This document shows positions 9,289 through 61,006 of a stretch of 61,006 bases of DNA, piece after piece. The first letter of the stretch is position 1, and every line of letters starts with the position of its first letter. The notes under the pieces were generated by a model. The model did not search any database, had not been told where the DNA came from, and saw only the letters and a program-made list of their open reading frames with translations. The position numbers and the translations under genes were made by a program. This stretch comes from Syntrophomonadaceae bacterium (lineage in GTDB: Bacteria; Bacillota; Dethiobacteria; DTU022): the NCBI GenBank assembly GCA_007130825.1, contig SLRT01000060.1, positions 1 to 61,006 on the forward strand, read 5' to 3'.

Positions 9289-9294
9289 ATGGTA

Positions 9295-9871
9295 CTGAAG
9301 ACAGCATAAGTGGTGCAGTATTCTAGTTGGCGCTCCTTTTCGAAAACGGGCCTAAAAATCCGTTAAGGGCACATCGATGAAGTTCCTGGTGGTGGCCGCC
9401 GACGCCCAGTCGGGGGCTGCTGCTGGGAGTTAAGAAGGATGGGGCGATCTACAATGGCATGTAGGCGTTGACCCTGCCTTCGTGGAGACCCAATGTCCGT
9501 GGCGTATTGTTCACAAAAACAAAAGGTTACGGCTTGGGCATGAACCTGCATGCGGTGCGAAGCTGTGTGCAGTGTAGCCTGCCTTGAGTGGAAAGGGTGG
9601 AGGAGATTAATCTTTCTCTTAAACCCTTTCTGCAAAAGAGGCTAGGAAAGACAAGGCGCCAGGGAGGAAATCTCCTAGACTGCTCTCGAAGGAGAGGCAG
9701 GCCAGGGATTAAAGTGTGAGCTGAGTGGTAATCCAGCTCCGCCGGTGGTGACACGGCGGGGATAGTCTTAAAAGGGAACTGCCGGCTCGGCAACGAGAGG
9801 TGATTATCCGGGAAATCCTGCTGGACCTAAGCCGCAAAGTTTACCTGGCCTGTCACCACTTATGTTTTTTT
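9295..9871 (+). ncRNA. ole: OLE (ornate large extremophilic) RNA
   Basis: About 575 bases between ispA and a small membrane protein gene hold no credible protein frame but strong RNA structure. CATAAGTGGTG (9305-9315) pairs perfectly with CACCACTTATG (9854-9864), closing the whole element, and seven T residues (9865-9871) follow as a terminator tail. Internal hairpins include 9737-9744 with 9754-9761 (eight pairs including one G-U) and 9680-9687 with 9692-9700. Length, position between ispA and dxs, and the adjacent oapA gene match the published OLE RNA of Bacilli and Clostridia, a membrane-associated ribonucleoprotein RNA linked to Mg2+, cold and alcohol stress. I did not align it to the family model; ends are inferred from promoter and helix. 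Confidence 0.85.
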
Positions 9872-9889
9872 CTACAAAGGTGATATAAT

Positions 9890-52857: not shown

Positions 52858-55800
52858 ATGACGAAAAAAGAACAAGCTATTATACCTGCAATCAAAATCG
52901 GTCTTGATATCGGCGTTTTTTCTGCCAAGGGAGCACTGATCGAAAATGATAAAATTAAGAAAGTTAAATTCCCGACTGCGGGCCGTCCCGTTGAAGCGGC
53001 CAAGCGGTGTATTGACGAACTTGTCGGCGAAAAAAAGGATTATAAAACAGTCGGGATAGGTGTGATGGGCCAAAACTCAAAGCTGGTCGCTGAAAGCCTT
53101 GGTCTTAACCCTTTGCTGGAAATCGAAGCTCTACAGGCCGGCCTTTATCATCTGAATGTTAAAGCCGATTATGTTTTGTCACTGGGTCATGAAAACATAC
53201 ATTATCTTGAGCTGGACGAACAGGGCCAAATCAGCTACTTCAGCCGTAACGGGCAATGTGCAGCCGGCAGCGGTTCTTTTTGGTACCAGCAGGCAACCAG
53301 GATGGGTTATAACGATCGTGAACTGGCGGAAATTGCAGTAGAAGCGGAATCGGCGGTTCCTATATCGGGCCGCTGTGCTGTTTTTGCCAAATCGGACATG
53401 ACTCATGCTATCAACGAAGGAGCAACTCAAAGCGCAGTTTCGGCCGGAATGGGCAGGGCCCTGGTAGAAAACGTGGTGACCAGCGTGGCCCAAAACCGTT
53501 TCCAGGGTCCCGGCTTGCTTCTTGCCGTCGGGGGAGTGGCTAACAACCGGGCAGTTATTAAATACCTGGACGAGTTTGTGCGCAGGGAAAATATTACCTT
53601 GTCGATTCCTGAAGATCATGAGTATATCAATGCTATCGGTGCTGCCGTTAAAGGCGTCCCCATGAATTCATCGTCTATATTTAATAAAGAATTTGCAACT
53701 CCCCGATACGAGCCGGAATCCCCGCTGCCTCCGTTAAAACCGGAGCAGGTCTGTTACCTCGAAGATAATCCGTTTACCGGTAAATATGATCTTACCCGGG
53801 TTTACCTCGGCGTAGACTGCGGATCTGTATCGACAAAATGTGTCCTGATTGATAACTGCGGACGACAAATTGGTGGTGTTTACCTGCCGACAACCGGACG
53901 TCCGGCCCTGCAGGTCCTTGAACTGATGAAGCAGGTAGAAGATAAATATGGTTCCTTGATTGGCAGCGTTCCGATAGTGGCCTGCACAACCGGTTCAGGG
54001 CGGTTTTTGTCCCAAAAAATATTAAATGCGGAGTACGCCGTTGACGAAATTACCTGCCAGGCAGAAGGCATCAAAAATATTTTCAGAGATGAAGACAGCC
54101 TGTCGATTATTGAAATTGGCGGTGAAGACTCCAAATTTATTCAGCTGCATGACGGGATACTTTTCGACTACAACATGAACCCGGTCTGTGCTGCCGGAAC
54201 CGGTACTTTTTTGGAAAACCTGGCTGAACTGCTCGGGATTAAAATTAAGGAAGAGTTTTCCGCAAAAGCTTTTGCAGCCAATTATGCAGTTGATCTCGGC
54301 GATATCTGCACTCTTATCTCCCAGTCAATCCTGGCCTCTGCTTCGGCCAGGGGTCTCGCCCTGAATGAACAATTAGCCAGCCTGGCCTACTCCTCGGCAC
54401 AAAACTATCTCAGTAAAACAGTGGATAAGCGGCCTTTAACCGGGAAAATTGTTTTTGCCGGCGCCACTGCTAAAAACCATGCGTTGGCCGCTGCGCTTGC
54501 GGCCATATGTGAAAAAAACGTCTATGTACCCTCTGAGCCGGAGTTAACCGGCGCGCTTGGCAGTGCCCTGGTGGCCAGGCAGTTTCATCAGCGGGGGCAA
54601 GAAAGCAATTATTCATTTCGGGATTTAGCGGCGGTTAGCAAGTTTAACAACAGTAAAAAACCCTGTAAGGCAGAATGCAAGCATGAACATAATTGTGTGC
54701 TTAATGTAATCAGCTTTAATGATGGCAACAAGTTTATTTATGGTGACCGCTGTGGACGCTATTCCGGTATTGAAAAAAAAGAAGAACAGACCGGATTGCC
54801 CGATTATGCAGCAAAACGAAAGGAAATACTTAACCGGGCTGCAGGAGAAAGTATAAGCCAGGGTCCCCGGGTCGGAATTGCCCGCTGCGGCCTTTACTTT
54901 GATTATTTTCCTTTCTGGGCTGCTTTTTTACGCAAACTGGGCTGTTCTGTGGTGCTGTCTGAAGAAACAAGCGCAGAAACCCTGCACAAGGGTAAAATAA
55001 TGCTTGATTCAGAAATGTGTTACCCGATGAAAGTAATTATCGGTCATTACCAGGAACTGAAAGAAAAAGATCTCGATTTTATTTTTCTTCCGGAAGTGGT
55101 GAACACAGAAGAACTGCCCTGGGCTCCCCAGTGGCCCCGTTCTTTTGTTTGCCCTTTGCTCCAAACATTACGGGGCACGGTGGAAAATTCGATAAGCCTC
55201 GAACCGGAAAGAGTGCTTTATGCCCAGCTTAATTATATAGATGGTTATGAGGGTATCAAAGAACAGCTGGAGCCGCTGGCAAAAAAAATTCTCGGCGCAA
55301 ATTACAGAAAAGAACTGGTAGAGGATGCAGTACAGGAAGCCTACAGCGCCCAGGATTACTTCCGGAAAGGCATTGTTTCTGCCGGAGAAGCAATGTTTGA
55401 AGATCTTAAGCACAACCGGGATTCGGCGGCAGTGGTATTTTTAAGCCGAAGCTATACGCTTTACGATGAATTTATATCGAAAAAATCGATGCGTTATGCC
55501 CGGCAGAGCAAGTTAATGGCTGTTCCGCACGAATTTTTTACGATATATCTGCAGGCGTGGTATACAGGTGAAATTAACTCTCCATATCTTGATCCTTATC
55601 GAGATGAATTTAAAGCTTACCTTGAAGAGCATGTTAACCGAATGGAAAATATTTACCCGGCACAGCTGCAAAAAATACTTTCATCAGTTATCCTGGTTAA
55701 TTTCCTGAACAGTAAATCTGAAGAAACCGGTTTGCCGCAAATTAATATGATCTTTTTAGATCCTTTCAAATGCGGGCCCAATGCAATGCTGCGCCACTTT

Positions 55801-57228
55801 TTGAATGATATGACCAGCTATCTGCGCCTGACGCTCGATGAACATACTGCGGCCGCGGGCATGATTACCAGGCTCGAAGCTTTCAGGAATACCTGTCTGT
55901 CCAAAGAAGAGATCCACGCACCGGTTATGCATTCATCTGCTACACGCAGGATTGACCAAAATGACTGGAATAAAATACTAATTCCCGAACCCACGCTTCA
56001 CTCTGATGTTTTTGCGGCAATGTTCAGGAGTCGCGGGATCGAAGCCGAGGTTTTACCGCGGGGTAAGGGCGGTGATCTTTCGTTGGCTCAACGCGTTGTT
56101 AACGGAGAGGAATGCCTGCCCTTTATCCAAAACCTGCAGGATTATTTGCAGTACCTGCAGACAAACGGTGGCGGTGATAATGGCGAAGTATTCTTTCAGG
56201 GCTGGGCCTGCGGTCCCTGCCGCTACGGCCTTTATGCTCCGGCACAGTCCCTGGCCGTTAACAGGGCCGGTTTCGGTGAACGTAAAGTGTGCGCCATAAA
56301 ATTTTCTGATATAAGCAAACGCTGTGGCTACACGTTCGTGGTCGGTATTTATAACGCTATGCTGGTCATGGATCTGCTCTATAAAATGCTGCACAAGGTT
56401 CGACCCTACGAATTGGAACCGGGCGCAGCCGAGAAACTTTTTAATCATTACAGCAGTAAACTTTTTGATCTGCTGGAAAATTACAAACTTCCGCTGACCA
56501 GCCTGGTAAGTGGAAGTTACAGAAAACCGCTCGAAAAACTGGTCAAGGAAGCGGCGGATGATTTTGGGCGCGTGCCGGTCGATAATACCGTAAAACCGAG
56601 GATTTTGCTCGGCGGTGAATTTTACGTGCGTATTGATGATCGCTGTAACCAGGCGGTAATCAAAAAAATAGAGGAGGCCGGAGGCGAGGTTTGCCTTGCC
56701 CCGACGACTGAAATATTTAGCTATACCATTTATATTGATTATCATGAGGCCCTGCAGGCATTTAAATTGAACCGCAGAGCCGCCGACTATATTAAGCAGG
56801 CCCTATATTCCATCCTGAGCAAAATAGCGCATCGTGACGAAGTTGCCCTGGAAAACGCAGCCGGGCCGCTGCTTGAAGACCTGCATGAACCTGCACCCTG
56901 GGAGATTATGGAGCACGCCGTAAAATATGTTTCCAGGCATTACGGCGGTGAACCGCCGATGACGATCGGGCGTTCTGCTGCTTTTGCCCAACGGGACCGG
57001 GTTACAGGGGCCATCTTTGTCGCCCCGTTTACCTGTATGCCCAGTTCAGTGGTCGAAGCGCAGCAAAGACCTTTGCAGGAAGAACTGGGTATTCCGGTAG
57101 TTACCATTTACTACGACGGAAAAGAAAATACCAACCGCGACGAGTTGGTCGAAGGACTGGTCTTTCAGGCCCGGCAGAAACTTAACGGCGATCGGCCTGC
57201 TCCAGGCAGACAACATCCGCGACCCTGA
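52858..57228 (+). CDS. Giant 2-hydroxyacyl-CoA dehydratase activase/DUF2229 fusion
   Basis: One 1456-residue frame holds two ASKHA activase domains (about 13-285 and 318-590). Each has a CAAGSGSF or CAAGTGTF loop and a second cysteine segment (GRCAVFAKSD; DICTLISQS) corresponding to the bridging-cluster ligands of HgdC-type activators. A Cys-rich stretch (CKAECKHEHNC) follows at about 602, then the DUF2229 and COG3581-like dehydratase-type regions from about 670 to the end. Such proteins are widespread in anaerobes. HgdC activators use ATP to drive an electron into 2-hydroxyacyl-CoA dehydratases or benzoyl-CoA reductases. GAGAGGTTGTT precedes ATG 52858. Substrate unknown. Confidence 0.88.
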   Translation: MTKKEQAIIPAIKIGLDIGVFSAKGALIENDKIKKVKFPTAGRPVEAAKRCIDELVGEKKDYKTVGIGVMGQNSKLVAESLGLNPLLEIEALQAGLYHLNVKADYVLSLGHENIHYLELDEQGQISYFSRNGQCAAGSGSFWYQQATRMGYNDRELAEIAVEAESAVPISGRCAVFAKSDMTHAINEGATQSAVSAGMGRALVENVVTSVAQNRFQGPGLLLAVGGVANNRAVIKYLDEFVRRENITLSIPEDHEYINAIGAAVKGVPMNSSSIFNKEFATPRYEPESPLPPLKPEQVCYLEDNPFTGKYDLTRVYLGVDCGSVSTKCVLIDNCGRQIGGVYLPTTGRPALQVLELMKQVEDKYGSLIGSVPIVACTTGSGRFLSQKILNAEYAVDEITCQAEGIKNIFRDEDSLSIIEIGGEDSKFIQLHDGILFDYNMNPVCAAGTGTFLENLAELLGIKIKEEFSAKAFAANYAVDLGDICTLISQSILASASARGLALNEQLASLAYSSAQNYLSKTVDKRPLTGKIVFAGATAKNHALAAALAAICEKNVYVPSEPELTGALGSALVARQFHQRGQESNYSFRDLAAVSKFNNSKKPCKAECKHEHNCVLNVISFNDGNKFIYGDRCGRYSGIEKKEEQTGLPDYAAKRKEILNRAAGESISQGPRVGIARCGLYFDYFPFWAAFLRKLGCSVVLSEETSAETLHKGKIMLDSEMCYPMKVIIGHYQELKEKDLDFIFLPEVVNTEELPWAPQWPRSFVCPLLQTLRGTVENSISLEPERVLYAQLNYIDGYEGIKEQLEPLAKKILGANYRKELVEDAVQEAYSAQDYFRKGIVSAGEAMFEDLKHNRDSAAVVFLSRSYTLYDEFISKKSMRYARQSKLMAVPHEFFTIYLQAWYTGEINSPYLDPYRDEFKAYLEEHVNRMENIYPAQLQKILSSVILVNFLNSKSEETGLPQINMIFLDPFKCGPNAMLRHFLNDMTSYLRLTLDEHTAAAGMITRLEAFRNTCLSKEEIHAPVMHSSATRRIDQNDWNKILIPEPTLHSDVFAAMFRSRGIEAEVLPRGKGGDLSLAQRVVNGEECLPFIQNLQDYLQYLQTNGGGDNGEVFFQGWACGPCRYGLYAPAQSLAVNRAGFGERKVCAIKFSDISKRCGYTFVVGIYNAMLVMDLLYKMLHKVRPYELEPGAAEKLFNHYSSKLFDLLENYKLPLTSLVSGSYRKPLEKLVKEAADDFGRVPVDNTVKPRILLGGEFYVRIDDRCNQAVIKKIEEAGGEVCLAPTTEIFSYTIYIDYHEALQAFKLNRRAADYIKQALYSILSKIAHRDEVALENAAGPLLEDLHEPAPWEIMEHAVKYVSRHYGGEPPMTIGRSAAFAQRDRVTGAIFVAPFTCMPSSVVEAQQRPLQEELGIPVVTIYYDGKENTNRDELVEGLVFQARQKLNGDRPAPGRQHPRP

Positions 57229-60539: not shown

Positions 60540-60685
60540 TTATATAAGTTTAGCAAAGGATTGTGTAACGCCTGCGAGATTCAAAAGCGGACACTAAAAG
60601 TAAATAATATGTATTTTTTTGCAAGATCGGTATAAAACCGTTTGTACTTATCGGAAACCTGTTCAATTGCTCTAAATGGGTTTTT

Positions 60686-60750
60686 ATGGGAAATATTAAT
60701 TTGACTCCAGGCGACTGTAGTGGTATACTCACAAGGTGGATATTTCCCAT
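60686..60750. repeat. 11-bp inverted repeat flanking a promoter
   Basis: ATGGGAAATAT (60686-60696) is the exact inverse complement of ATATTTCCCAT (60740-60750). The two arms bracket the promoter at 60701-60729. Confidence 0.85.
60701..60729 (+). promoter_or_regulatory. Sigma-A promoter of a short noncoding unit
   Basis: TTGACT (60701-60706) and TATACT (60724-60729) are separated by 17 bp. Transcription should start near 60736, just before the right arm of the inverted repeat. Confidence 0.8.
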
Positions 60751-60868
60751 TTTAAAAACGTTTACCGGGTGAAACAGGACAAAATGTTTAACTTAATTAT
60801 GATCTCAGCCACTACAAAGTATCGAATATTTTAACGAAGAAAAAAGCTCCATTATATGGGCTTTTTTT
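60736..60868 (+). ncRNA. Candidate small RNA or leader/attenuator
   Basis: About 133 bases run from the promoter at 60701 to the terminator at 60840-60868. Inside is a 16-codon frame (60784-60834; ATG after AGGAC) that could be a leader peptide. I recognise no riboswitch core. It may be a free RNA or an attenuated leader of the gene starting at 60999. No other gene is supported in 60540-60998. Confidence 0.5.
60840..60868 (+). terminator. Intrinsic terminator of the short unit
   Basis: AAAAAAGCTC (60840-60849) pairs with the GGGC and T run at 60858-60868 (ten pairs, one T-G), loop of about eight bases. Confidence 0.85.
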
Positions 60869-60998
60869 CTTCTCGCTGCAAACTGCTGATGACCAGCAAC
60901 TGTATCTTTAACCTGCAGTGAATTGTTGGTAAAATATTTTTTAGTAAAACTTTTGATCAAACAACGTTAGTAAATGATATAAATGAAGGAGATTACAT

Positions 60999-61006
60999 AT
61001 GGCAGA
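60999..61006 (+). CDS. Start of a gene truncated by the window end
   Basis: ATG 60999 follows GAAGGAGA by about 6 bp, a convincing translation start. Only two full codons (Met, Ala) are visible, so no product can be named. TTGATC at 60953 with an AT-rich TATAAA near 60978 might be its own promoter, at a poor spacing. Confidence 0.6.

Follow-up and report, generated by a model that had tools for sequence, protein, structure and literature searches.

Transcription-attenuation leaders of metabolic operons consist of a promoter, a short leader and an intrinsic terminator, followed by an operon that lacks a second promoter. The locus described here resembles them in having a promoter, a short leader and an intrinsic terminator ahead of an operon, which probably lacks a second promoter. 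It differs in that we found no antiterminator, leader peptide or sensor. The SAH riboswitch (RF01057) has a similar position ahead of ahcY; its model has no match in our sequence or in 16 relatives' loci. The SAM-I riboswitch (RF00162) occurs in the genus studied here (10 of 12 genomes), but elsewhere in the genome, with no match at this locus. A comparative study describes SAH-responsive RNA and protein regulators at ahcY in Proteobacteria (PMC4239095).

The unit reported here is probably the 5' leader, of the attenuator type and with a promoter-proximal terminator, of a kinase-ahcY operon of the SAM cycle, as judged from its sequence and that of its relatives. The leader is of an ordinary but well-conserved kind, with a promoter, an early terminator and a SAM-recycling operon. 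In the mechanism that we propose, RNA polymerase would start at the extended -10 promoter (60701-60729), and most transcripts would stop about 130 nt downstream at the intrinsic terminator. Read-through transcripts would cover the operon of the adenosine-kinase-like PfkB gene and ahcY, so that termination would set (attenuate) the level of the SAM-recycling enzymes. Expression of the operon would then depend on read-through.

The unit and the genes that follow it

The window (the whole stretch of DNA analysed, 61,006 nt) is the entire contig C97, one of 177 contigs in a draft genome (G000). Its named close relatives are Syntrophomonadaceae MAGs with isolate labels (such as CSSed10 and T1Sed10) that resemble those of Kulunda Steppe soda-lake sediment datasets (PMC6146748). 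The features of the locus are as follows.

60686..60696, no strand: upstream 11-bp arm of the inverted repeat, ATGGGAAATAT, immediately 5' of the -35
60701..60729, + strand: sigma-A-type promoter, TTGACT-17-TATACT, with extended -10 (TGG), assigned by sequence match and conservation
60736..60868, + strand: predicted transcript of the terminated leader, about 133 nt, from a putative start
60740..60750, no strand: downstream 11-bp arm, ATATTTCCCAT, containing TTTCC and matching the upstream arm perfectly
60784..60834, + strand: 16-codon frame, MFNLIMISATTKYRIF, judged not to be a conserved leader peptide
60840..60868, + strand: intrinsic terminator (hairpin and T-run), found at all 17 orthologous loci, with one compensated stem pair
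60869..60998, + strand: gap of 130 nt between terminator and start codon, without a convincing second promoter
60999..61006, + strand: start of the adenosine-kinase-like PfkB gene (8 bases), which continues on contig C153 (L003:4081-5097:-) and is followed there by ahcY
Loci L013, L014, L016 and L018-L021 of sister genus g17: second conserved stem-loop, upstream of the kinase gene

The window ends (61006) 8 bases inside the next gene. Positions 60644-61006 overlap contig C153 (L003) with 98% identity (356/363 bases), and the unmerged overlap presumably reflects two strains in the assembly. The overlap allowed us to read into the following gene, as the first-pass annotation had proposed. C153 carries this gene onward as an adenosine-kinase-like PfkB protein of 338 aa, with a sugar kinase and an adenosine kinase as its best-scoring solved-structure matches. 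The next gene on C153 encodes the adenosylhomocysteinase (SAH hydrolase) AhcY (TIGR00936, above cut-off). The third is a convergent amidohydrolase gene whose product resembles deaminases of SAH/MTA and related types and reaches no curated NCBIfam cut-off. Joining C97 to C153 is supported by relatives in which a YqeC-MobA-like gene (upstream genes named by eye), the unit, the kinase gene and ahcY follow in the same order on a single contig (L007/L023, L008/L024 and L011/L027).

Conservation of the promoter and terminator

We compared the locus in a 17-row alignment comprising the source genome twice (once per contig), eight other species of its own genus and seven genomes of g17. The promoter is seen in every aligned row. 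Counted by locus, it is present at 16 of 17 orthologous loci; the remaining contig (L017) has just 240 bp of upstream sequence and is outside this alignment, yet inside that of the terminator. Mean pairwise identity across nine own-genus species is 94-96% in the -35 and extended -10, and pairwise identity is 31-46% in the spacer, the flanks, the initial transcript, the bases before the gene and the first part of the gap. The promoter is also the sole match to TTTGAC-N15/16-TGNTATAMT in the window, searched on both strands. From the position of the -10 only, transcription would start at about 60736. A TTTCC motif, part of the downstream repeat arm, lies 13-14 nt past the -10 in seven of the nine own-genus species.

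The terminator has the form AAAAAAGCTCCAT-TAT-ATGGGCTTTTTTT, ends at 60868 and has a predicted stability of -9.7 kcal/mol. A simple scan missed it, presumably because of a one-base bulge. An intrinsic terminator is present upstream of the kinase orthologue in all 17 genomes, 130-265 nt before the start codon. Its arms are 82-92% identical pairwise in the nine own-genus species. In the own-genus alignment, the stem shows 97.7% pairing, and in 4 of 11 rows one A-U pair is replaced by G-C; because shuffles reach both values in 27 of 500 cases, pairing and covariation together give modest support. A 2-base deletion in the 5' arm distinguishes C97 from C153, and the hairpin persists (-8.8 vs -9.7 kcal/mol).

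These results bear out the anatomy given in the first-pass annotation, which had described a good promoter within perfect 11-bp arms (60686-60696 and 60740-60750), a 16-codon frame within the transcript and a transcript end at a strong terminator about 130 bases after the promoter. That reading had been staked on conservation of promoter and terminator, with covariation as a further check, and both elements are conserved across two genera, the covariation adding the modest support given above.

Association with the kinase-ahcY operon

Of 43 genomes in the family, 17 have a close kinase orthologue, and these fall in two genera (10 of the 12 own-genus genomes and all 7 of g17). The unit looks like a control region of the operon, since the arrangement is kept before the same kinase-ahcY pair in relatives. 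An upstream gene is visible at 13 of 15 loci and differs between species; by eye, there are at least three kinds (a YqeC-MobA fusion, an actin-like gene and an NADH-dehydrogenase-like gene). By comparison, ahcY follows the kinase gene at 14 of 15 loci, and the exception is a locus that ends too early.

We used an approximate promoter matrix to score the gap between terminator and kinase gene. The best score does not exceed the shuffled 95% level in 16 of 17 rows (scores of 3-9, vs 13.7-15.3 for the leader promoter). The exception is L007, where the gap scores 11.7 against a 95% shuffle level of 10.5. In a different family of the same order, two loci, L030 and L036 (L113 and L114 by coordinates), have a similar promoter 151 and 89 bp before the kinase orthologue, with no T-run terminator between the two.

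The first-pass annotation had left the choice between a regulated small RNA and an attenuator of the next gene, and of these the attenuator is better supported. The upstream gene varies, ahcY stays and most gaps show no promoter; the unit thus belongs with the operon and is likelier to be its leader than a free small RNA. A stand-alone, trans-acting small RNA of about 130 nt, which would leave the kinase operon with an unseen promoter of its own, is unlikely. The unit does have its own promoter and terminator, and TTTCC, at its near-constant distance from the -10, might mark a place near the 5' end for pairing or protein binding. Against this, own-genus leaders vary from about 41 to 197 nt between the predicted start and the terminator end and conserve little sequence, so that promoter and terminator do not enclose a conserved RNA body. 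The promoter-terminator unit occupies one locus in the source genome (two contigs of the same place), and a search with the whole leader DNA matched 1 of 12 own-genus genomes, the source genome itself. Where tested, there is a single locus per genome, always ahead of the kinase gene.

Candidate signals and the sister genus g17

If the unit is an attenuator-type leader, its terminator may respond to a signal, and we considered an operator, a leader peptide and a metabolite-binding RNA. The inverted repeat could serve as an operator, with a protein bound on either side of the promoter. The SahR operators of Proteobacterial ahcY similarly combine a SAM-cycle operon with a palindromic control site, although the SahR site is a 20-bp palindrome (PMC4239095); here, the arms lie 43 bp apart and are mostly unconserved. 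The window has 4 distinct pairs of perfect 11-bp arms separated by 20-80 bp (mean of 1.05 over 40 dinucleotide shuffles), and 49 of 3000 shuffled copies of the 460-bp intergenic region contain such a pair; on these counts, the inverted repeat alone is mildly unusual. Among the 15 other aligned species, a counterpart appears in L009 only, where a 9-bp perfect pair with different letters occupies almost the same position (shuffling p 0.0035). The repeat is thus not general. An operator would fit the L009 pair and the TTTCC position fixed downstream of the promoter in seven of nine own-genus species. It is nevertheless improbable, as arm length in the other 14 rows, including all seven of g17, does not exceed that of shuffles (p ≥ 0.2), and one match at p 0.0035 among 15 genomes is marginal.

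The 16-codon frame has an AGGA four bases 5' of its ATG, as would suit attenuation through a leader peptide. We regard this explanation as close to untenable, since other species either lack the frame or have an unrelated one. A frame of at least 8 codons that begins before the terminator is missing from L009, L013, L014 and L020. In the remaining species, the leader frames are unrelated, except for a short MFN- similarity in L012, and the L012 frame continues through the terminator. Moreover, one of the three substitutions between the C97 and C153 leaders alters an amino acid of the frame.

A third possibility is a riboswitch, in which binding of a SAM-cycle metabolite such as SAH or adenosine to the leader would switch the terminator. 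In its favor, the kinase-ahcY pair belongs to SAM recycling, g17 has two conserved stem-loops that each end in a terminator, and the Proteobacterial study places SAH-responsive regulators at ahcY (PMC4239095). Rfam scans of the window, of the leader alone and of 16 relatives' loci identified no family at this locus. The RF01057 search of own-genus genomes was silent, as was that of the control genomes. A consensus fold of six own-genus leaders contains the terminator only, without a conserved aptamer. The predicted fold of the leader in the window is no better than that of its shuffles (z -1.08). Across 15 leaders, the 5' arm of the terminator pairs upstream no clearly more than in shuffles, giving no sign of an antiterminator. 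Pairing between the leader 5' end and the remainder is at chance in 9 of 10 own-genus rows. In the tenth, L022, the 5' end is paired with its own terminator; this leader measures about 41 nt from predicted start to terminator end and is therefore too short for an aptamer. The lack of an Rfam match, aptamer and antiterminator, together with the 41-nt leader, makes a riboswitch quite unlikely. The lack of an antiterminator and of a shared structure besides the terminator, the 41-nt leader, the unremarkable leader fold and the L007 gap score also count against the attenuator reading. We also searched the full-text literature on ahcY and adenosine-kinase leaders, tandem terminators and riboswitches of soda-lake Syntrophomonadaceae; nothing on the leader appeared among the matches listed, though absence is unproven.

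It is possible, if doubtful, that these loci represent an undescribed regulated SAM-recycling leader of soda-lake Syntrophomonadaceae, with one terminator here and two tandem stem-loop terminators in g17, whose signal and mechanism would be unlike those of known SAM and SAH riboswitches. If read-through is regulated, the leader would provide an added control point for SAH removal in soda-lake anaerobes, a group known mostly from metagenomes. If it is unregulated, the unit would amount to an ordinary operon leader whose early terminator leaks.

With its two conserved elements, g17 would be the better place to seek a new metabolite-sensing RNA. The stem of the first g17 terminator is conserved and contains internal loops, and its apical part varies greatly in length. 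Because the pairs are nearly invariant, covariation speaks neither for nor against this element. The second element is a conserved stem-loop of about 100 nt that ends in a terminator about 40-50 nt before the kinase gene. Both partners change in three of its 28 pairs, a value also reached by 13 of 500 shuffles. A model of the second element matches all seven g17 genomes once each at the kinase locus; across 43 genomes, its only other matches are three weak ones on the opposite strand at those g17 places. Neither element matches Rfam. We consider the second stem-loop a candidate regulatory RNA of genus g17.

The model of the first element strongly matches the same seven g17 loci. It also has four weak matches in other genomes (G022, G009, G027 and G006), the best of which (E 2.3e-4) is at G022:C2:22966-23004 (L126), in a genome without a close kinase orthologue. 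By eye, we also looked for a permuted form of the first element (GAGAAAGAGG ... CCATTTCC) in the own genus, and dropped the idea because its model has no match at this locus.

Elsewhere in the window, a 1456-aa frame (52858-57228, + strand) presumably resembles fused activators of 2-hydroxyacyl-CoA dehydratases. The window also contains a full-length OLE RNA (RF01071, 497 bits) at 9294-9875 on the + strand.
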